64,000 nt of DNA from a virus: IMG/VR virus record IMGVR_UViG_3300020174_000004, positions 35,674 to 99,673 of that record, one strand, 5' to 3'. Below the pieces are notes generated by a model that saw only the letters and a program-made list of their open reading frames with translations, had not been told where the DNA came from and ran no database searches. Below are positions 43,410 through 59,822 of this stretch, in pieces. The position numbers and the translations under genes are program-made. Position 1 is the first letter of the stretch, and every line of letters starts with the position of its first letter.

Positions 43410-43928
43410 ATGAGAAAAACAACACATTATGTAAATAACAAAACTTTATTTGAAACAATGAAAACATATAAAGAAAGTTATGATAAATCCAAAGAAAATA
43501 ATGAAGAACTCCCACGTATTCCGGAATATGTTGGTGAAAGCATTATGCTTATATGCAATAGATTGTCATATAAGCATAATTTTATTAATTACACATATAA
43601 AGAAGAAATGATATGTGATGGTATAGAAAATTGTTTGGCAGCAGTTAATAACTTTAAACCAGATAGATCTAATAATCCATTTGCATATTTTACACAAATT
43701 GCTTTTAATGCCTTTATTAGAAGAATTTCGAAAGAAAAAAAACAAACATATATAAAGCATAAAAATATGGAAAACATGTTTGTATTTGATGATTTATTAC
43801 ATGAATTTGGGCATGATGAAAATAACAATCTTTATGTTAGTAATAATAAGAATAATCATGTTGTTGAAGATTTTGAAAAAAAGTTGACAAAATCAAAGAA
43901 AAAGAATACTATTATTAGTGAGGCATAA
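43410..43928 (+). CDS. gp55: Late-gene RNA polymerase sigma factor gp55
   Basis: A 172-residue sigma-family protein (T4 gp55 has 185). The region-2-like part (C-D-G-I-E-N-C-L, then N-N-P-F-A-Y-F-T-Q-I-A-F-N-A-F-I-R-R) at about residues 70-110 is typical and recognises the TATAAATA late promoters seen in this window. T4 gp55 ends in a clamp-binding tail; here the end (N-T-I-I-S-E-A) is hydrophobic-acidic but lacks a clear motif. Confidence 0.9.
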   Translation: MRKTTHYVNNKTLFETMKTYKESYDKSKENNEELPRIPEYVGESIMLICNRLSYKHNFINYTYKEEMICDGIENCLAAVNNFKPDRSNNPFAYFTQIAFNAFIRRISKEKKQTYIKHKNMENMFVFDDLLHEFGHDENNNLYVSNNKNNHVVEDFEKKLTKSKKKNTIISEA

Positions 43929-48950: not shown

Positions 48951-49294
48951 TGAGTGAAAAAGAATCAGTAAAAGTTCTTCAAGAGTGTATTGATTTACAG
49001 CTTAAGAAATCAAATGATTATCAGAATCCTAATTCTGTTATTAGACAGGCTGATTATTACCCAAATGGTTGCTTGACAATTCTTGATACCATGCATGGCA
49101 AAATTCTTAGAATGCGATCGGTAATGGACGCAATGGTTAATGATCCAGATTATAAGCCAAACTTTGAATCACTAGAAGATTCTGCAAAAGATCTTGTAAA
49201 CTATGCTTCATTCTTTGTTTCTTACTCTCGTGGTAAGATTGATGGCCAAAATACAGATCGTGATTTCTTGAATAGAAAGATAAAGAATGTTTAA
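48950..49294 (+). CDS. Nmad1/DUF1599-like nucleotide-modification-associated protein
   Basis: A 114-residue helical protein. The order C-I-D-L-Q-L-K-K-S-N-D-Y-Q-N near residue 12, I-L-R-M-R-S near 50, and F-E-S-L-E-D-S-A-K-D-L-V-N-Y-A near 75 fits the DUF1599/Nmad1 family as I recall it, a family linked by gene context to phage DNA base modification. It overlaps the TS-fold gene by 8 bases, consistent with a joint pathway. Exact activity unknown. Confidence 0.6.
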   Translation: MSEKESVKVLQECIDLQLKKSNDYQNPNSVIRQADYYPNGCLTILDTMHGKILRMRSVMDAMVNDPDYKPNFESLEDSAKDLVNYASFFVSYSRGKIDGQNTDRDFLNRKIKNV

Positions 49295-49943
49295 TAGAAA
49301 TACAGTTGCTGATATTCGAGAAGAATTCAAAAGACTTCTTGATGAGAAGCAGTTTGTTACAGATAAAAGTGGTGTTAAGATAGTTGAAATACCTAATGCT
49401 TCTTTTATTGCTAATGAATCATGTATTTTTGGTACAGTTAATTATGATTATGTTTTACGTGAATTAAGTTGGTATTATTCAGAATCATTGAATGTAAATG
49501 ATATTCCAGGCGGTCCTCCAGCAGTTTGGAAACTAGTTGCTGATAAAGATGGATATATTAATTCCAATTATGGTTGGTGTATTTTTTCTCCAGAAAATTT
49601 TAGTCAGTATGATAAAGTTTTAAATGAACTTAAAACTTCACCAGAATCTCGCCGAGCAATTATGATTTATACTCGTCCAACTATGTGGTATGATTATAAT
49701 GATAATGGTCGTTCAGATTTTATGTGTACAAATGCTGTTCAGTATATGATTAGAAATAATAAACTTCAAACAATTGTTCAAATGAGATCCAATGATGTTA
49801 TCTTTGGATATAAAAATGATTTTGCCTGGCAAAATCAAATACATGAAAAACTTGCAGACGATCTTAATATTGAATATGGCGATATTCATTGGAATGTTGG
49901 TTCTTTACATGTTTATGAAAAACACTTTCATTTGGTAAAATAA
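49287..49943 (+). CDS. Thymidylate-synthase-fold enzyme, dCMP hydroxymethylase-like
   Basis: A 218-residue enzyme. The catalytic Cys147 (F-M-C-T-N), Arg167 (Q-M-R-S-N-D) and the H-V-Y pair near residue 208 align without gaps to E. coli ThyA Cys146, Arg166 and His207-x-Tyr209. At +31 from the Cys, where thymidylate synthases have Asn177 for uracil, this protein has Asp178. In T4 dCMP hydroxymethylase the corresponding residue is Asp (179) and sets cytosine specificity. I therefore prefer a dCMP-hydroxymethylating (or methylating) enzyme using methylene-tetrahydrofolate. It is shorter than ThyA (264) and T4 gp42 (246). dUMP as substrate is not excluded. Confidence 0.7.
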   Translation: MFNRNTVADIREEFKRLLDEKQFVTDKSGVKIVEIPNASFIANESCIFGTVNYDYVLRELSWYYSESLNVNDIPGGPPAVWKLVADKDGYINSNYGWCIFSPENFSQYDKVLNELKTSPESRRAIMIYTRPTMWYDYNDNGRSDFMCTNAVQYMIRNNKLQTIVQMRSNDVIFGYKNDFAWQNQIHEKLADDLNIEYGDIHWNVGSLHVYEKHFHLVK

Positions 49944-50490: not shown

Positions 50491-51639
50491 ATGAATAATA
50501 TTCGTGTAGCCATTGTTGGCGTTGGTAACTGTGCAAAATCTCTAGTTGAAGGTGTTGCACTATATAGTGCAACTTCACGTGTTGATGGGCTTGCATTTGA
50601 AAATATTGGAGGCTATAAGGCTGAAAATATTGAATTTGTTTTGGCATATGACATTGATACTCGCAAAGTTGGTAGAAAGCTTGCTGATGCTATTTTTGCA
50701 AAGCCAAATTGCGCAATGGATTTTGAAGTATCACGTCAAAATATTGAAAAAGTTTGTTCAAATACCATAGTGAAGCGTGGTGCTTTGTATGATGGTGTTG
50801 CACCACACATGCTTAATATGCCAGAAGATGAATCTTTTAGAGTAACAAAAGATCCTGAACCATCCAAGGAAGAAATTATTAAAAATCTTCGTGATAATAA
50901 GGTTGATGTTCTTCTTAATTACTTACCAGTTGGATCAGAAACTGCTACTCGTTTTTACATTGAAGCATGCATTGAAGCAAAGGTTCCTTTTGTCAATTGT
51001 ATTCCAGTATTCATTGTTTCAGACCCATATTGGGAAAAAAGACTAATTGAAGCAGGAATTCCTGCAATTGGCGATGATATGAGAAGCCAGCTTGGTGCTA
51101 GTGTTATGTCACAGGCATTGCAGGAACTATTCTTTAATCGTGGTATGAAAGTAAAGTTCCATGAACAAACAAATCATGGTGGTAATACTGATTTTCTTAA
51201 TATGATGGATCAGAGTCGACTTGCTAGCAAAAAGATTTCTAAGGAAAATGTAATTAGATCACAAAATGATATTCGTGGAATCCCGGTTCCAAAGAATGGC
51301 ATTTATGCTGGACCATCAAGCTATATTCCTTATCATCAGGATAATAAGATTGCACATTTTAGAATTGAAGCTGAAGGATTTGGTGGCGCGCCAGTAATTT
51401 TTGATGCCCGTTTATCAGTACAAGATTCACCCAATTCTGCTGGTGTTGTTATTGATGCTATTAGATATCTTCAGGTTGCTAAAGAACTAGGACTTGTTGG
51501 TTCTCTACGTGGACCTTCAGCAGCTACACAAAAGACTCCACCAACACAGATGATGATTCAAGATGCATATGAAGAATGCAAGGCTTTAGCAGAAAGGCGG
51601 ATTACCGAAACTGTAAGGAATCATAATATCCATGATTAA
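50491..51639 (+). CDS. ino1: myo-Inositol-1(3)-phosphate synthase
   Basis: A 382-residue enzyme of the short, actinobacterial-type INO1 group. The NAD-binding start (V-A-I-V-G-V-G-N-C-A), N-C-I-P-V-F, G-D-D-M-R-S-Q-L-G-A near residue 204, the G-G-N-T-D-F-L-N-M motif near 232 and S-K-K-I-S-K match the family closely. It converts glucose 6-phosphate to inositol phosphate. GC content and ribosome site (AAAGGG) are ordinary for this phage, so the gene is well settled. It sits between the nucleotide genes and the DNA-modifying-looking genes, overlapping the HAD gene by 8 bases. Confidence 0.9.
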   Translation: MNNIRVAIVGVGNCAKSLVEGVALYSATSRVDGLAFENIGGYKAENIEFVLAYDIDTRKVGRKLADAIFAKPNCAMDFEVSRQNIEKVCSNTIVKRGALYDGVAPHMLNMPEDESFRVTKDPEPSKEEIIKNLRDNKVDVLLNYLPVGSETATRFYIEACIEAKVPFVNCIPVFIVSDPYWEKRLIEAGIPAIGDDMRSQLGASVMSQALQELFFNRGMKVKFHEQTNHGGNTDFLNMMDQSRLASKKISKENVIRSQNDIRGIPVPKNGIYAGPSSYIPYHQDNKIAHFRIEAEGFGGAPVIFDARLSVQDSPNSAGVVIDAIRYLQVAKELGLVGSLRGPSAATQKTPPTQMMIQDAYEECKALAERRITETVRNHNIHD

Positions 51640-52012
51640 TACCTTTGATATAGATGGTGTAATCTATATGGGTGATAAATACACTGGGGTCTTTCCTGGC
51701 CCCAGTGATATAATCATTACCGGTCGTTCTTTTGAAGAAAGACACTACACCGAAAAAATGCTTATGGCTAGAAATATTTCAAACCATGTGTATTATAATA
51801 ATAAAAGATTTGAAGATAAAACTAGAGAAAGTTCGGGTTTACATAAAGCTAATACTATTAGGAGTCTTTTAAATAGTGGATATGAAATTGGTATTCACTT
51901 TGAAGATGATGAAATTCAAGCACAGGTTATTAGTAATTTAATACCAGAAATTAATGTAGTTATATTAAAGCACAATCTTGTTGATAAAGAGAATGTTTGG
52001 CATGGAAAATAA
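51632..52012 (+). CDS. HAD-superfamily phosphatase-like protein
   Basis: A 126-residue minimal HAD protein: motif I F-D-I-D-G-V at residues 5-10, motif II I-I-T-G-R near 29, and motif IV F-E-D-D-E near 89. There is no clear cap domain. The start overlaps the INO1 stop, so it could remove phosphate from the inositol phosphate made next door; a nucleotide or 3'-phosphate substrate is the alternative. It overlaps the next gene by 11 bases. Confidence 0.7.
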   Translation: MINTFDIDGVIYMGDKYTGVFPGPSDIIITGRSFEERHYTEKMLMARNISNHVYYNNKRFEDKTRESSGLHKANTIRSLLNSGYEIGIHFEDDEIQAQVISNLIPEINVVILKHNLVDKENVWHGK

Positions 52013-53069
52013 TTATAATTATAATTGGTATAATTTTGATAAAGAATTAATGAAAGACTTTAATTGGTTTTTACACAAAATTAATAAAAGAGCTTGTATT
52101 AATTATGGATTTATTAAAGAAAAATATGAAGCGGTAAATCGCTTTGGACAAGAAGATTGGGGATTAGGCGAGGATGTAGAATATTTCCATCCAACTATTA
52201 CTCTTGATGATCGAATGCGTTATATTTGTCAAGTTATAGTAAAACATCCTATGAGTGAATTTAATGTTCTTGGTAATACCATTATTTCACATTTTTATGG
52301 TGCTCGTGGTGTACATCAAACTATAACAGGATCTTTAGATCCAAATAATTGTTTTGTTGATTTTGATGAAGTGGCAAATGACAATCAAGATTATATTAAA
52401 TGGTTACGAAGCACTGTAGAAAAAGAAACAAAAATTAATAAAAAGCCAGTATGGGGAACTACTGAATTGCATACGCCAATTCAGGCTGCTGCTAGAAATT
52501 ATTGTAGAGAAAAATATGATAATAAAGATAGACCATTTCATACAATTGATGTTATTGAATGGGTTGCATCGTTCAAAGATAATGGAATAGCAAAAGCATT
52601 ACTACATGAAGTTGATCATCTTAAAGATGCATTTAAAGCCTTAACAAAACACAAAGGTATTGGCGAATATTATGGATTTCATTGTTCAACATCAACTAGT
52701 GTTATTCCACAAGCTAAATATCATCATGACCAAAGATTTGTAGCACCAGGACCAGGAGCCAGATATACAATTAATAAAATATGGCCAGAAGCACCAAAAT
52801 CTTTATATGCTGAAGCAGTTTATTTTTTACGTGAAAATGCTGATGAAATTGGATTAACTGAAAATGTTGAATTTCATCCAGATGCATGGAATATTGATAA
52901 TACCTTTACATTTCCACAAGATAGTTTAAAATATTATGGTACAGAAGTTCTTTCATGCCAGTTTGGTATATATCTACAAATACGTAATAATAAAAATGCG
53001 TGTAATAAAAGAAAAGTTTCTAGAATAGATTCTGATACAAATAATACACTTGAAGGATTTTTATCATGA
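52002..53069 (+). CDS. Putative DNA base-hypermodification protein with clamp-binding tail
   Basis: A 355-residue protein. The stretch G-I-G-E-Y-Y-G-F-H near residue 220, H-H-D-Q-R-F-V, and A-P-G-P-G-A-R at 248-254 resembles the helical catalytic domain of aGPT-Pplase/5-hmdU-kinase-type hypermodification proteins, which share an F-V-x-P-G-P-G-A pattern; this is from memory and needs profile comparison. The last residues, N-T-L-E-G-F-L-S, form a PIP-box-like tail also present in the next two proteins. The start ATG 52002 lies inside the HAD gene end; ATGs at 51993 and a TTG at 51978 are alternatives. If the family call is wrong it remains a conserved unknown. Confidence 0.45.
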   Translation: MENNYNYNWYNFDKELMKDFNWFLHKINKRACINYGFIKEKYEAVNRFGQEDWGLGEDVEYFHPTITLDDRMRYICQVIVKHPMSEFNVLGNTIISHFYGARGVHQTITGSLDPNNCFVDFDEVANDNQDYIKWLRSTVEKETKINKKPVWGTTELHTPIQAAARNYCREKYDNKDRPFHTIDVIEWVASFKDNGIAKALLHEVDHLKDAFKALTKHKGIGEYYGFHCSTSTSVIPQAKYHHDQRFVAPGPGARYTINKIWPEAPKSLYAEAVYFLRENADEIGLTENVEFHPDAWNIDNTFTFPQDSLKYYGTEVLSCQFGIYLQIRNNKNACNKRKVSRIDSDTNNTLEGFLS

Positions 53070-54166
53070 AATGTGTAATTGCAGCTCCATTTATTCCTAT
53101 ATCGTCCCAATTGGCAAGTCATAGAGCCGCGCAAGGAATAATTTATGCTGATATTCTAAAACAATATCATTGTGATAATATACATGTTTCTCTTTCAAGG
53201 CCTTCAATACAGGGTGATTCAGCTAAAGAAGAAAATAAAAAAGAGGATTTTAATAAGTATGATAGACTTTACATATATCATGGAAATGATAGAAAAGCGG
53301 ATTGTACTGATTTAAATTTTTTTGGTGGAACAAAAAACTTTCCTCACGCTTATAATATAAGAAATATATCTAAATTTAAAGGTGAAGTTTATTCTCTTCA
53401 TTATGATATGCCTGATTATGCTCAAATGTTAAAAAATAAACTTGATGGTCATCTTCTTCGTGAAGGAAATTTAGATAGTGTTGTAAAAGAATTTCTTGAA
53501 GTTGATATTGAAAATCTTAAAAAGATGCAAGAACGAGCAATTACATTAGAACCAATTGGTCCATGGGATAAACTTGTAATGGGTGATAGTCATGCAATAT
53601 GCATGTATCGTCCAGGATGGAATGTTAACTCCGTACCATTTAAAACTTTACATGGTGCCTTAAAACAAGGACTAAATTCATTTATAAACATGTCAAATGT
53701 AAAGCATGTTGAATATTATTTTGGTAATATTGATATTAGACATCATATATGTAGATTTGAAGATATTAAGTCTACAATTAATATTCTTGTAGAAAAATAT
53801 ATTAATCAGGTTAATGAACTTAATATGGAAACTAAAGCCATTTATGAACTTCTTCCAATAGAAAATGAAAGTAGAAGTATTCCTAAAAGTGGATGGTATG
53901 AAAAAACTCCATTCTATGGCTCTTGGTCACAAAGAAATGATGCAAGATTATATTTTAAAGAAAAACTTATAAATATGTCCCAAGGAACTGGTATAACTAT
54001 AAAAGAATGGATAACTCCAGAATTTTATAATTCAATTGGTGAAATGGATTTTAAAGTGATGGAAAAACCCAAGTCTGTTCATCTTTCTAGGGAATATTAC
54101 CCTTATTGGCAAGGTCTTGAATATAATAAAATTGAAAAAATAAGTTTGGAAAGCTTTTTCTCATGA
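53066..54166 (+). CDS. Two-domain protein with SGNH-hydrolase-like C-terminal part and clamp-binding tail
   Basis: A 366-residue protein starting in an ATGA overlap. Residues 1-125 form an alpha/beta domain (C-V-I-A-A-P-F-I-P then L-Y-I-Y-H-G-N-D). Residues about 168-345 have SGNH hallmarks: G-D-S-H at 173-176 (block I), Y-F-G-N-I-D-I-R-H-H at 218-227 (block III) and K-S-V-H-L-S-R near the end (block V). SGNH enzymes are esterases or acyltransferases. The final K-I-S-L-E-S-F-F-S repeats the tail of its neighbours. In context it could add or remove acyl groups on modified bases or sugars; this is a hypothesis. Confidence 0.55.
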   Translation: MKCVIAAPFIPISSQLASHRAAQGIIYADILKQYHCDNIHVSLSRPSIQGDSAKEENKKEDFNKYDRLYIYHGNDRKADCTDLNFFGGTKNFPHAYNIRNISKFKGEVYSLHYDMPDYAQMLKNKLDGHLLREGNLDSVVKEFLEVDIENLKKMQERAITLEPIGPWDKLVMGDSHAICMYRPGWNVNSVPFKTLHGALKQGLNSFINMSNVKHVEYYFGNIDIRHHICRFEDIKSTINILVEKYINQVNELNMETKAIYELLPIENESRSIPKSGWYEKTPFYGSWSQRNDARLYFKEKLINMSQGTGITIKEWITPEFYNSIGEMDFKVMEKPKSVHLSREYYPYWQGLEYNKIEKISLESFFS

Positions 54167-55380
54167 AACATTCTACTATTATACCACTTATTGGCGGTGA
54201 AATTATTGCATCAAGCGATGTTTTTGGTGACAAGCCAGAATATATTTTATCATATGATGTTTTTAAACATAATGAATCACATCTTTTAAATTATTGGAAT
54301 AATGAAATTCCATATTATGTATTAGATAAAGGTGATTCTGCGCCAAAAACAAAAATAGATGTGGTTTCAAGTGTTTGCCCTTGTGCAGGACTTAGTCAAT
54401 ATCATCATAAACCAGGTGAAGATAATCAAAATAATCAATGGATGGAAAAAACCGCAAATTATATTCTTGGTGAGGTTAAACCTAAGGTATTTTGGGGTGA
54501 AAATGCGCCAGCACTGGTTGGTAAGATTGGCGAATTCATGCTTAAAAAGCTTAGAAATATTGGTCTTCAAAATGGCTATAGTATGAGTGTATATCTTACT
54601 AAAAACATTAATCATGGTGTTCCACAATTTCGTAAAAGAACATTTTATTTTTTCTGGGATAAAAAGGAATTTGGTGAACGTTGCCCTCTTATCAATTATT
54701 TTGCCAGACCACATAAAAAAATTGAAAATGTAATAATTGATAATGAAAGCAATTTTCAAATGGAGCCAATTAATAATAAAATTCCGTCAAAAGATGATCC
54801 ATATTATCGTTATCTACTTGAAGAAGTTCATGGTGGTGTTACTCATCGTGAATTTTTTGATATATTAGAAACAAAAAATGTTAGAGGAAATGATGTAGAA
54901 TCATTAATTGAAATTGCTGGCCATGATTATAATATGGTTGGAAACTGGATGGAAAAAAATAATTATACTAGAGAAATTGAAAAGTGTAAAAGAAAATTTA
55001 TAAAATTAAAAAATAATGGTAATATAATGAGAAGAGGAACAATTGTTCCTAAAGATTATATTGGCGCCTTTGTTGGCCATTATCCAACTGTTTTAACTCA
55101 TCCATATGAAGATAGATATGTAACATATCGTGAAGCGATGAATATTATGGGGCTTCCACGTGATTTTGAACTTTTAAATCCACAAAAATCAATAAATCAT
55201 ATTTGTCAAAATGTACATTATGATACATCAAAAGATATGGCAATGGAAATAAAATCAGTTTTTGCTGGTGATCGTAAATTTGTTGAAACTGACTTTATGT
55301 TCCAATCCAATTTAAATAAGACTCATGAAGATTGGTCCAATCATGGTAAGGATACAACATTAGAATCATTTTTTGCATAG
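54163..55380 (+). CDS. Cytosine-C5 DNA methyltransferase homologue with clamp-binding tail
   Basis: A 405-residue protein with all C5-methyltransferase blocks: motif I I-P-L-I-G-G-E (6-12), motif IV C-P-C74-A-G-L-S with the catalytic Pro-Cys, motif VI G-E113-N114-A, motif VIII G-V-P-Q-F-R-K-R (152-159), motif IX Y-R-E-A-M-N-I-M-G-L-P near 320 and a motif X-like Q-N-V. The usual P-P-C-Q is C-P-C-A, so it is divergent but retains catalytic residues. It may methylate, or transfer another group to, cytosine. A short target-recognition region suggests modest specificity. It ends T-T-L-E-S-F-F-A. The ATG overlaps the previous stop. Confidence 0.75.
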   Translation: MKHSTIIPLIGGEIIASSDVFGDKPEYILSYDVFKHNESHLLNYWNNEIPYYVLDKGDSAPKTKIDVVSSVCPCAGLSQYHHKPGEDNQNNQWMEKTANYILGEVKPKVFWGENAPALVGKIGEFMLKKLRNIGLQNGYSMSVYLTKNINHGVPQFRKRTFYFFWDKKEFGERCPLINYFARPHKKIENVIIDNESNFQMEPINNKIPSKDDPYYRYLLEEVHGGVTHREFFDILETKNVRGNDVESLIEIAGHDYNMVGNWMEKNNYTREIEKCKRKFIKLKNNGNIMRRGTIVPKDYIGAFVGHYPTVLTHPYEDRYVTYREAMNIMGLPRDFELLNPQKSINHICQNVHYDTSKDMAMEIKSVFAGDRKFVETDFMFQSNLNKTHEDWSNHGKDTTLESFFA

Positions 55381-55817: not shown

Positions 55818-56646
55818 TCTAAATGAATTAAGAAAGAATAAACTTTTTATTGCTACACCAATGTATGGTGGTCAATGTGCTGGTATGTTTGCTAGATCTA
55901 TTGCTGATTTATCTGCTCTATGTGCAAGCAATGGAATTCAAATTCAATTTTATTTTCTATTCAATGAGTCTCTAATTACTCGGGCAAGAAATTATTGTTG
56001 TGATGAATTTATGCGTTCTGATGCAACACATATGATGTTTATTGATTCTGACATTGGTTTTAATCCCAGAGATGTTATTGCACTTATGGGCCTTCAAACA
56101 GAAGATAGTGAATATGATGTTATTGGTGGTCCATATCCAAAGAAATGCATTTCATGGGAAAAGATTAAGCAGGCTGTTGATAAAGGTATTGCTGATGAAA
56201 ATCCTCAACTTCTTGAAAAGTATGTTGGCGATTATGTCTTTAATCCAAAGAATAATCAAGGTCAGATCCCACTAGGTGAACCAGTTGAAGTTCTTGAAAT
56301 TGGTACTGGTTTTATGATGATTAGGAAGAAGACTCTTCAAAAGTTTATTGAAGCATATCCTCAGTATTCATATAAGCCTGATCATGTAAGGACAGAAGCT
56401 TTTGATGGTTCTAGAGAAATCATGATGTATTTCCAGGCCGAAACAGATCCTAAGTCTAAGAGATATTTATCAGAAGATTATTGGTTCTGTCAAAAGATCC
56501 AAGAAATTGGAATGAAAACTTGGTTCTGTCCATGGATGTCAATGCAACATGTTGGTACATATATCTTTGGTGGTTCTTTGGCTGATCTTGCACAAATCGG
56601 TGCAGCAGCAACCGCTGATGTTGGTAAGTTAAATAAAAAGAAGTGA
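55801..56646 (+). CDS. GT-A type glycosyltransferase family protein
   Basis: A 281-residue paralogue of the enzyme at 16517. A-T-P-M-Y-G-G opens the nucleotide-binding fold; D-S-D-I-G at residues 82-86 is the DxD metal site; G-T-G-F-M-M-I-R-K near 170 and S-E-D-Y-W-F-C near 225 complete it. AAGGAAA precedes the ATG at 55801. Between the DNA-modification-like genes and the clamp it is a candidate to glycosylate modified bases; virion or host glycans are alternatives. Confidence 0.7.
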   Translation: MELTFNLNELRKNKLFIATPMYGGQCAGMFARSIADLSALCASNGIQIQFYFLFNESLITRARNYCCDEFMRSDATHMMFIDSDIGFNPRDVIALMGLQTEDSEYDVIGGPYPKKCISWEKIKQAVDKGIADENPQLLEKYVGDYVFNPKNNQGQIPLGEPVEVLEIGTGFMMIRKKTLQKFIEAYPQYSYKPDHVRTEAFDGSREIMMYFQAETDPKSKRYLSEDYWFCQKIQEIGMKTWFCPWMSMQHVGTYIFGGSLADLAQIGAAATADVGKLNKKK

Positions 56647-56660
56647 AAGGAAACTATATA

Positions 56661-57326
56661 ATGCAAAAGTTGAAGCTATCTACACGTACAATTCAGATCT
56701 TAAAGAATTTTTCATCAATTAATCCTTCAGTTTATTTTAAACAAGGAAATAAGATTACTACTATTTCGCCTTCAAAGACTATTTTGGCCAAGGCTGAAGT
56801 AGTTGAAAATTTTGAAAGTGATTTTGCAATCTATAATCTATCAAGGTTTCTTGGTGTATTAACTCTTTTTAATGATCCAGAACTTGAAATTAATGAAAAG
56901 TATGTTACCATTATGGATAATAAGAAGAAGCTAAACTATATGTTTGCTGATCCTTCTAATATTATTACACCTCCTGAAAAAGAAATTGAGATGCCAAACC
57001 CAGAAATCTCTGTTTCATTGCCAAATGATGATCTTCAGACTATTATGAAGGCATTGTCAGTGCTTCAGTTGCCTGAAATTGCATTTGTAGGCCAGGAAGG
57101 TAAAACAACTATTCAGGCTGTTGACTCCAAAGGTTTGGTTGGTGATAATTGTTCAGTTGAACTTGGAAATTCTGAAATTGATTTCAAGATGATCTTTAAG
57201 GCTGAAAATATTAAGATTATTCCTGATGATTATGAAGTTCAGATTTCATCAAAGAAAATTTCAAAGTTTACTGGTTCTGATATAAATTACTACATTGCTG
57301 TAGAATCTAACTCCTCTATGAATTGA
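56661..57326 (+). CDS. gp45: Sliding clamp gp45
   Basis: A 221-residue clamp (T4 gp45 has 228). Start K-L-S-T-R-T-I-Q-I-L-K-N-F-S-S-I-N matches the family start; internal I-L-A-K-A-E and D-F-A-I-Y-N-L-S-R are conserved. It is a trimer holding the polymerase and late transcription complex on DNA. The ATG 56661 is preferred; AAAGGA lies upstream and the in-frame GTG at 56643 has no such site. It directly follows genes whose products seem to carry clamp-binding tails. Confidence 0.92.
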   Translation: MQKLKLSTRTIQILKNFSSINPSVYFKQGNKITTISPSKTILAKAEVVENFESDFAIYNLSRFLGVLTLFNDPELEINEKYVTIMDNKKKLNYMFADPSNIITPPEKEIEMPNPEISVSLPNDDLQTIMKALSVLQLPEIAFVGQEGKTTIQAVDSKGLVGDNCSVELGNSEIDFKMIFKAENIKIIPDDYEVQISSKKISKFTGSDINYYIAVESNSSMN

Positions 57327-57340
57327 TTGGAAAATATAGT

Positions 57341-58279
57341 ATGAATGAAGAATTTTTGTGGGTTGAAAAATATCGACCAAAAACAGTATGTGAAACAATT
57401 CTTCCAAGTGATTTAAAAGAAACATTTAAAAAATTTGTAGAACAAAAAAATATTCCCAATCTTCTTCTTTCAGGCACTGCTGGTGTGGGCAAAACAACAA
57501 TTGCCCGCGCCATGCTTGAAGAATTGGATTGCGATTATGTTATCATCAATGGTTCATTGCATGGTAATATTGATACACTTAGGAATGATATTCATAACTT
57601 TGCATCCGCCGTTTCATTTAAAGGTGGAAGAAAGTATGTTATCCTAGATGAAGCAGATCATTTAAATGCAAATTCAACTCAACCAGCCTTAAGAAACTTT
57701 ATGGAAGAGTTTTCAAATAATTGCGGGTTTATACTAACATGTAATTATAAGAATAAGATCATTGCACCTCTTCATTCAAGGTGTTCTGTTATTGATTTTA
57801 GAATTCAAAAATCTGATATGCCTAAAATGGCTGCTCAATTTATGAAAAGAGTCAATACAATACTGGATGATGAAAAAGTTGAATATGATCCAAAGGCTAT
57901 TGCTGAAGTTATAACCAAGTATTTTCCTGATTGGAGAAGAGTGTTAAATGAACTTCAACGCTATTCAGCCACTGGAAAGATTGATACTGGAATATTAACT
58001 AATCTCCAAGATATATCTATCAAGGAATTGGTTCAATATATGAAAAACAAGAATTTTACAAATGTAAGAAAATGGGTTGCTGAAAATTCAACTGTGGATC
58101 AAACTTCTATTTTTAGAAACTTTTATGATTCTGCATCAGAAATGTTTGTACCAGGATCTATTCCGGATCTTGTAGTTACTCTTGGTAGATATCAGTATCA
58201 AGCAGCTTTTGTTGCTGATCATGAAATTAATCTATCAGCTTGCATGGCTGAAATCATGAGAGACTGTGAATTTCAATGA
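57341..58279 (+). CDS. gp44: Clamp loader large subunit gp44
   Basis: A 312-residue AAA+ ATPase (T4 gp44 has 319). V-E-K-Y-R-P at the start, Walker A G-T-A-G-V-G-K-T-T at 45-53, Walker B D-E-A-D at 103-106, and a sensor region T-C-N-Y-K. It opens and loads gp45 with gp62. An in-frame TTG at 57323 is possible but the ATG at 57341 fits the family start. The stop overlaps gp62. Confidence 0.95.
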   Translation: MNEEFLWVEKYRPKTVCETILPSDLKETFKKFVEQKNIPNLLLSGTAGVGKTTIARAMLEELDCDYVIINGSLHGNIDTLRNDIHNFASAVSFKGGRKYVILDEADHLNANSTQPALRNFMEEFSNNCGFILTCNYKNKIIAPLHSRCSVIDFRIQKSDMPKMAAQFMKRVNTILDDEKVEYDPKAIAEVITKYFPDWRRVLNELQRYSATGKIDTGILTNLQDISIKELVQYMKNKNFTNVRKWVAENSTVDQTSIFRNFYDSASEMFVPGSIPDLVVTLGRYQYQAAFVADHEINLSACMAEIMRDCEFQ

Positions 58280-58656
58280 CATATAAACCATTTGATTATG
58301 TAAATTCTATTAATAACACCAAGAAAAATTTAATAGAAGATGAAACAAGCGAGAAGGGGTATAACCCCTTCTTGACTAATCGTGCTTTGTCATATCATGT
58401 TGATTCATTGCTATATGCAAATGATATGAATATGTTATCAATTCTTGATAATAAGTTGCAATATGACTATTATCTTCATGGGTTAAAAAAGAGTAAGAGA
58501 TATTCCAAGTGGCATAAATTTGAACCATCTGAGAAATATGAAATTATTAAAGAATATTATAAATATAATGATAAGAAAACAAAAGAAGTAATGAATCTTC
58601 TTAATGATTCACAAATAATGATTCTTAAGAATAAAATGTTTAAAGGTGACCAATGA
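58276..58656 (+). CDS. gp62: Clamp loader small subunit gp62
   Basis: A 126-residue protein (T4 gp62 has 187, so this is short). P-F-D-Y-V-N-S-I, then Y-N-P-F-L-T-N-R-A-L-S-Y near residue 30 and A-N-D-M-N-M-L are family hallmarks. ATGA overlaps on both sides couple it to gp44 and the oxygenase gene. Confidence 0.88.
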   Translation: MTYKPFDYVNSINNTKKNLIEDETSEKGYNPFLTNRALSYHVDSLLYANDMNMLSILDNKLQYDYYLHGLKKSKRYSKWHKFEPSEKYEIIKEYYKYNDKKTKEVMNLLNDSQIMILKNKMFKGDQ

Positions 58657-59822
58657 TTGAACTCCATAAAGATTCCATAGAAGTTATAGATAATCTTTTA
58701 CCAGACGATCTTCACGAAGAGATAATGGATGACGTGAGATCATTTAGGTTTACTTATGGTTGGCTTCAAAGTAGTGCTGATTATCATGGTCATTTTAATG
58801 TAGAATTAATCCATGCAGCGCCATCAAATGTTGCTGATGTTGAAGATGAATTAAAAAAGACGGAATTAAATTATACCTCTCTTTATAAGATGTGGAAGTA
58901 TATACAATCAGAATATGTTGGTCTAGATAAAAAACTTATTAGATGTTATTTTAATGGTCATGTTTTTGGCATAGATGGATATAGTCATAGAGATTCACCT
59001 CGTGATGATGAATGGTCTATGGTTATCTATACTAATTTTGAAGATGAATGGAATCCAGATTGGGGTGGTGAAACTTCTGTATTTGAAGATGGTGAAATTA
59101 TTAAATCAGTTTTACCGAAGAAAAATAGAGCAATTATATTTGCTGGTAATAAACTTCACGCGCCAAGACCGCTTGGTAGATTTTACACAGGCATGCGTCA
59201 GATTATTGTCTTTAAGTTTAGGTCACCAAGAACAGAAAGTTTTGAAAAAGTATCAACTCTAGTAAAGGAACTTGGCGGAATGCGAGTTCCTTCCAGATCA
59301 TTTGGTAATATGCATGATCATATGTTATCATGTTATACTGAATTGAGTAAAAGAGTTGTTGATGAAGAGGTATGTGAAGCGGCTGGTCTTCATGCTCTTT
59401 ATGGATCTAGAACTGCAAAAACCGCATTTTTAGATCCAAAGAAAAATTCCGACGTTATTAAATCATTATTTTCTAATAGAGTTGAAGAGCTTGTATATCT
59501 ATGTTCAATTATTGCTAGACCAGAAGGATTAATGGATCCCGTTGATATATCTGATGAGGGTGTAACTGTTAAACTTTTTAATGGTGATGATATTAGAATA
59601 CCAAGACAGCATTATGATGATTTAATGCTTATAGAAGCGGCCAATCAAGCATCACTTTCTATAGTTTTAGATAGAGATAAATATGATAAGTTCTCTTCAA
59701 TTTATCCAGTATTAGAGGATGAGAGTAAAAAGTTAAGTGATACCCTTTCTCATAGGGAGCATTTTAAGAATCATAATAAGTACAGGGAATATAATATAAG
59801 AAAGAAGAAAAAGAATGAGTAG
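58653..59822 (+). CDS. 2OG-Fe(II) oxygenase fused to a DUF6817-like helical domain
   Basis: A 389-residue fusion. Residues 1-200 form a prolyl-hydroxylase-type oxygenase: iron ligands His112-x-Asp114 and His169, with Arg182 for 2-oxoglutarate. Residues about 225-340 (V-C-E-A-A-G-L-H-A-L-Y-G, then R-V-E-E-L-V-Y-L-C) resemble DUF6817, an HD-like helical domain. Inserting it between gp62 and regA is a feature shared with marine T4-like phages as I recall. Target protein, nucleotide or base unknown; the modification cluster upstream makes DNA a possibility. Confidence 0.8.
   Translation: MIELHKDSIEVIDNLLPDDLHEEIMDDVRSFRFTYGWLQSSADYHGHFNVELIHAAPSNVADVEDELKKTELNYTSLYKMWKYIQSEYVGLDKKLIRCYFNGHVFGIDGYSHRDSPRDDEWSMVIYTNFEDEWNPDWGGETSVFEDGEIIKSVLPKKNRAIIFAGNKLHAPRPLGRFYTGMRQIIVFKFRSPRTESFEKVSTLVKELGGMRVPSRSFGNMHDHMLSCYTELSKRVVDEEVCEAAGLHALYGSRTAKTAFLDPKKNSDVIKSLFSNRVEELVYLCSIIARPEGLMDPVDISDEGVTVKLFNGDDIRIPRQHYDDLMLIEAANQASLSIVLDRDKYDKFSSIYPVLEDESKKLSDTLSHREHFKNHNKYREYNIRKKKKNE

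Follow-up and report, generated by a model that had tools for sequence, protein, structure and literature searches.

Candidate sliding-clamp-binding tails on three neighbouring DNA-modification enzymes of a T4-like phage

Three consecutive genes in a 64,000-nucleotide stretch of viral DNA (the window, bases 35674-99673 of the 99,673-base record IMGVR_UViG_3300020174_000004) encode proteins that finish in the related peptides NTLEGFLS, ISLESFFS and TTLESFFA. With a probability that we put at roughly 0.87, these tails are sliding-clamp-binding motifs (SCBMs, also called CIPs, the phage form of the PIP box) of the gp45-type clamp encoded nearby. As judged from its genes, the source is a T4-like phage that probably makes hydroxymethylcytosine DNA and decorates that DNA further. 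The features on which the argument depends are the following:

51978-53069, + strand: enzyme 1, a protein with an HMUDK_hel domain (Pfam PF18723, E=6.7e-11; helical fold in the AlphaFold2 (AF2) model, predicted local distance difference test score (pLDDT) 76); its probable start is near the Met at 51999.
53043-53066, + strand: C-terminal box of enzyme 1, NTLEGFLS (sequence, homologue C-termini, AF2).
53066-54166, + strand: enzyme 2, a two-domain protein whose N-terminal half weakly resembles T4 beta-glucosyltransferase (BGT) and whose C-terminal half has an SGNH/GDSL-hydrolase fold.
54140-54163, + strand: C-terminal box of enzyme 2, ISLESFFS (sequence, homologue C-termini, AF2).
54163-55380, + strand: enzyme 3, a homologue of C5-cytosine DNA methyltransferases (PF00145, E=3.3e-18; profile matches to the HaeIII and HhaI structures).
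55354-55377, + strand: C-terminal box of enzyme 3, TTLESFFA (sequence, homologue C-termini).
56661-57326, + strand: gp45-type sliding clamp, the proposed receptor (PF09116, E=6.3e-17; phrog_223, E=1e-73).

The clamp ORF (open reading frame) is listed from a GTG at 56643, and its profile matches the RB69 and T4 gp45 structures with E of about 2e-26. The original prediction was that three DNA-modifying enzymes are tethered to a clamp encoded about 1.3 kb downstream. The sequence features behind it are correct: the coordinates and tails are exactly as it claimed, and about 1.26 kb separates the third gene from the start of the clamp ORF.

Is the peptide kept where the enzymes are kept? Scans of viral contigs provided 33, 41 and 13 close loci, and then 80 loci each for families 2 and 3. 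The box is retained in 45 of 46 distinct homologue C-termini for enzyme 1, 73 of 75 for enzyme 2 and 95 of 99 for enzyme 3, and several of the listed exceptions are themselves box variants (NLEEIFG, KTLELFDI, NLEHVFA and DISQWVM). As a control, the C-termini of the clamps fit the same loose pattern in 5 cases out of 78, and the strict box occurs in 8/1974 (0.4%) proteins of other families from the same loci. In a right-anchored alignment, the L and the first F of the box hold 3.2-4.1 bits, and the preceding linker, which is barely alignable among homologues, about 0.5-1 bit. The AF2 models give pLDDT values below 50 to the linker of enzyme 1 (341-356) and to residues 353-366 of enzyme 2, with short helices at 351-355 and 361-365, respectively. 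The tails have the anatomy of an SCBM: a hydrophobic-acidic box of the form L/I-x-x-aromatic-(aromatic/L), at or near the C-terminus, behind a variable and flexible linker. Likewise, the SCBMs of gp43, gp55, gp33 and DNA ligase of T4 and RB69 are short hydrophobic-acidic boxes; in gp43, gp55 and gp33 the C-terminal position after a divergent linker and the spacing L-x-x-(F/L)-(F/Y) are also shared, and a short helix is predicted here. Unlike those proteins, the carriers described here are DNA-modification enzymes.

The codons behind the peptides differ (CTT GAA GGA, TTG GAA AGC and TTA GAA TCA), in agreement with the earlier view that the match is kept at the protein level. That view needs one correction: in tails 1 and 2 the final S follows from the TCATGA in which the stop codon overlaps the start of the next gene, which does not hold for tail 3. 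Could the tails as a whole be a by-product of overlapping genes, the last codons of one providing the next with its Shine-Dalgarno site and start codon? Besides the fixed last residue, GAAGGA in tail 1 and GGAAAG in tail 2 lie 8-9 nt ahead of the next ATG, so that the GAA(GGA) codons may double as the ribosome-binding site of the following gene. However, the gene after enzyme 3 begins 80 nt downstream, so neither effect applies there; methyltransferase homologues keep the box across gaps from -9 to more than 100 nt; and the L and the F-F lie outside the Shine-Dalgarno bases. As the main cause, this explanation is refuted and has almost no likelihood left; at most, it helps to account for the E in the third box position of the first two tails.

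The decisive added evidence for a tethering of these enzymes to the clamp, which the sequences now support, is that the replicative polymerases of related phages share the peptide. On contigs bearing the module, polymerases end in ATLDEFFG, ISTLEDWFA, STLEDFFS, NTLEDFFNG, STLDEFFA, NTIEDFFT, NTIEDFFS, NTLESFFA, NTLEDFFA and ATLDDWF, and in relatives having both genes the box of the enzymes matches that of the polymerase of the same phage. The correspondence extends to the Aeromonas lineage, where the polymerase ends in NNLFDMFDI, the BGT/SGNH protein in NKTLELFDI and a fusion protein in CSLDGLFAI. In T4 itself, gp43 ends in SLDFLFG and gp55 in SLDFLYEAND; the polymerase peptide 892-SLDFLF-897 forms a single-turn helix inside the clamp pocket (PMC12746103), and C-terminal boxes can be exchanged among gp43, gp55 and gp33 (PMC2988020). 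A position-specific scoring matrix (PSSM) built solely from the polymerase tails of relatives was used to rank the 113 non-overlapping ORFs of the whole 99.7-kb contig; the three C-termini rank first, third and fourth, with single-site empirical p-values for the three tails of 3e-6, 1.7e-4 and 5.8e-4 against the internal peptides of all loci.

Homologues that lack the box were sought among about 220 distinct C-termini, since a tail lost from otherwise conserved proteins would speak against a function. Clear losses are found only in remote homologues (24-32% identity), which fall into four lineages, three of them without a detectable T4-type clamp and the fourth being XG4. In S-TIM5, Bacillus phage G and Tenacibaculum PTm1 the homologues have no box, and a phrog_223 search of these three genomes detected no clamp, while the same model does detect one in XG4 and in the Aeromonas phages. 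These data bear on another explanation, in which the tails bind some other shared partner (each other, gp32, the clamp loader or the gp46/47 complex) and build a modification complex without the clamp. Three neighbouring genes with one tag would fit a common scaffold of this kind equally well. However, the same tag occurs on the polymerases of the same phages, its T4 version binds gp45 (PMC3012046, PMC12746103), and the tag is missing from homologues in genomes without a detectable gp45. We regard a partner other than the clamp as improbable.

The slot directly upstream of the methyltransferase is occupied by different genes in different phages, and here the box recurs on proteins unrelated to the three enzymes. 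A GT4-like family in this slot carries it in all five members (5/5), and it is also found on a GT10-like protein (locus L277) and on another glycosyltransferase (L081/L082). Among proteins of the alpha-glucosyltransferase (AGT) family it is present in 3 of 16, so that the box occurs in four unrelated glycosyltransferase families, on all their members or on part of them. UDP-galactopyranose mutases in the same slot have no box (a single protein among the 11 of the wider family matches the strict pattern), nor has any of 17 members of an epimerase-like family. Given glycosyltransferases with the box and mutases and epimerase-like proteins without it, the box appears to go with enzymes whose plausible substrate is DNA, not nucleotide sugars. 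Homologue retention, polymerase-identical tails and this recurrence on unrelated glycosyltransferases are the reasons for reading the tails as a conserved clamp-binding peptide and not as chance.

As an observation apart, AGT-family proteins differ in this respect at L264:2579-3988, L281:2760-4004 and L293:1-366, which have a C-terminal box, and at L254:2766-4001 and T4 agt (L087:16625-17827), which do not; box-less members end, e.g., in VFEDLMNKIK, possibly a hidden clamp site. At L076:5815-6894, a divergent HMUDK_hel protein (25% identity) in the same slot as enzyme 1 has two tandem box-like peptides, PLTFDSFFD and STLDSFFV.

How would such a system work? We infer physical binding, the pocket used, the coupling to replication, the shared occupancy and the modification chemistry as follows. 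A flexible linker of about 10-15 residues would present the short box (T/S)-L-(E/D)-x-F-(F/L), which would dock in the hydrophobic inter-domain pocket of the gp45-type clamp, the same place as the polymerase tail. The clamp is a three-fold ring in which each subunit offers one pocket, so that the three enzymes could be carried together. The HMUDK_hel protein, the BGT/SGNH-like protein and the C5-methyltransferase would then ride the clamp behind the fork and decorate the new, probably hydroxymethylcytosine-containing, DNA on its emergence. A broader proposal, to which we lean slightly, is that T4-like phages possess an exchangeable cassette of DNA-acting enzymes from at least six unrelated families (HMUDK_hel, BGT/SGNH-like, C5-methyltransferase, GT4-like, other glycosyltransferases and AGT), each of which acquired the clamp-binding tail of the polymerase. 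A swapped-in enzyme would work on the fork, and hypermodification would be replisome-bound, with up to three modifiers and the polymerase sharing the three pockets.

The original prediction left room for either replication or transcription coupling. In the latter variant, which is compatible with clamp binding, the tails would reach the clamp within the late RNA polymerase-clamp complex, and it is true that the boxes of T4 gp55 and gp33 connect the clamp to late RNA polymerase (PMC2988020). The relevant protein here is encoded as follows:

43410-43928, + strand: gp55-like late sigma factor, ending in KKKNTIISEA (identical to the L117 gp55 homologue, which matches T4 gp55 with E=9e-23).

No clamp box is recognisable at the C-terminus of this protein, which makes transcription coupling less likely, and the near-identical box is that of the relatives' polymerases. 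The transcription part of the claim is thus weakened, and replication coupling appears the likelier of the two; we give late transcription a small chance. The C-termini of gp55 homologues vary widely (LELFMV, GLEEFYVEVPEDLENDD and KKKNTIISEA; window 43410-43928, L101:11682-12257, L104:3762-4346, L112:4866-5450 and L129:4476-5036), and the contact of the late sigma factor with the clamp may have been lost or altered in some of these phages.

Several points weigh against the binding of the tails to the clamp. The source phage's own polymerase was not found on the 99.7-kb contig, so the relatives' polymerases were used, and the polymerase tail is known solely from these relatives, 72-76% identical in the enzymes considered. 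XG4 possesses a clamp, and its polymerase has a box (ASLDDLFM); the distant methyltransferase and glycosyltransferase of this phage have none. Among the seven residues of the RB69 gp45 pocket, R32, Y39, I107, F109, W199, K204 and V217 (PMC3012046), the basic R32 and K204 and also W199 are not kept in the lineage of the window clamp; positions 39, 107, 109 and 217 are hydrophobic, with an aromatic at 217, in contrast to RB69. With the basic residues and W199 lost and the hydrophobic positions kept, the pocket may have shifted its preference. In T4, the balance between alpha- and beta-glucosyltransferase is set mostly by expression rather than by clamp binding, and this recent work questions the importance of the clamp contact of the alpha enzyme (PMC13216743). 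Finally, the motif by itself is not fully specific, because the ORF ranked second of 113 by the PSSM is a baseplate-hub protein.

This last protein is also what would favour reading the box as the ordinary C-terminal helix of each fold, or as chance, with no separate binding role. It is a homologue of phrog_150 at L086:4886-5611 (- strand; window-relative -12787 to -12062) that ends in RTLNDFFMLR; a second phage (L123) conserves the tail as STLNDFFTFR, clamp-box-like and yet on a structural protein. On the enzymes, however, the box sits after a low-confidence, poorly conserved linker in the AF2 models, recurs on unrelated folds, and is both present and absent inside the one alpha-glucosyltransferase family. 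Chance is rejected by the conservation among homologues and by the polymerase-only PSSM, and the whole explanation is very improbable.

As for known systems, T4 alpha-glucosyltransferase was reportedly found in association with gp45 (Sommer 2004), and the earlier appeal to this contact was well placed. A pull-down of 2026 confirmed the report: the alpha- but not the beta-glucosyltransferase of T4 bound gp45 (PMC13216743). In both cases DNA-modifying enzymes are involved, co-purifying with the phage clamp in T4 and predicted to bind it here. T4 AGT has no C-terminal box and ends in KEQFDIITK; because it binds gp45 without such a tail, it is a functional precedent and not the same anatomy. Unlike T4, up to three enzymes of one cassette are boxed here, and some marine AGT homologues are as well. 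In eukaryotes, DNMT1 is likewise a C5-cytosine methyltransferase brought to a replication clamp, PCNA, by a short motif (PMC9690074); the phage case differs in its T4-type clamp and its C-terminal box. In a search of the open-access literature (subscription papers lay outside it), only the work on T4 AGT turned up, and no description of conserved clamp boxes at the C-termini of enzymes throughout a phage modification cassette.

The coupling of hypermodification to replication has hitherto rested largely on that one enzyme. The roughly 200 modifying enzymes that bear the clamp tag come from unrelated families and form a natural collection in which relatives without the tag serve as controls, which opens the question to direct tests. 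In searches, clamp tags near gp45 could serve as pointers to unknown DNA-modifying enzymes, and tails could be swapped among enzymes, steering them to nascent DNA. Collectively, the pattern suggests a link between the decoration of the DNA and the advancing replication machinery.

The chemistry of the three enzymes deserves some comment. Enzyme 1 contains the HMUDK helical domain (PF18723), but the name 5-hydroxymethyldeoxyuridine (5-hmdU) DNA kinase was rejected, since Pfam finds no P-loop kinase domain and the model is helical; comparison with PDB structures gave no significant match to its fold. In the family of enzyme 2, PF09198 is matched in 10 of 26 members (best E=6e-5), and the window protein scores 14.6 bits, under the curated cut-off of 27. 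Its C-terminal half resembles the PAF-acetylhydrolase 1bwq (Foldseek on the AF2 model, E=2.4e-4), with conserved GDSH and GNIDIRHH motifs in this SGNH/GDSL-like half, unexpected in a DNA glycosyltransferase. The families were originally described as otherwise unrelated, which holds less well for enzymes 1 and 2: they are not wholly independent, because Aeromonas phage 44RR encodes them as one fused 795-aa protein (ORF233c, phrog_17781), with the single terminal box given above instead of separate tails. Aeromonas phages yielded no methyltransferase homologue. In enzyme 3 the PC, ENA and QxRxR motifs of C5-cytosine methyltransferases are all intact in the alignment.

Further genes near the module are the following:

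49287-49943, + strand: dCMP hydroxymethylase (gp42-like; 56% identity to T4 gp42), which supplies 5-hydroxymethylcytosine; it has D at the dCMP-selecting site.
50491-51639, + strand: myo-inositol-1-phosphate synthase homologue adjoining the module (PF01658, E=2.7e-25).
57323-58279, + strand: large subunit of the clamp loader (gp44-like; AAA+ Walker motif GTAGVGKTT), immediately after the clamp gene and assigned by sequence and position.

The synthase homologue ends in RNHNIHD, with no clamp box, and is possibly a precursor enzyme. It lies beside the DNA-modification genes; a DNA modification derived from inositol, or a precursor of this kind, is conceivable. Just past the clamp-loader genes, at 58653-59822, lies a 2-oxoglutarate (2OG)-Fe(II) oxygenase fused to a DUF6817 domain.

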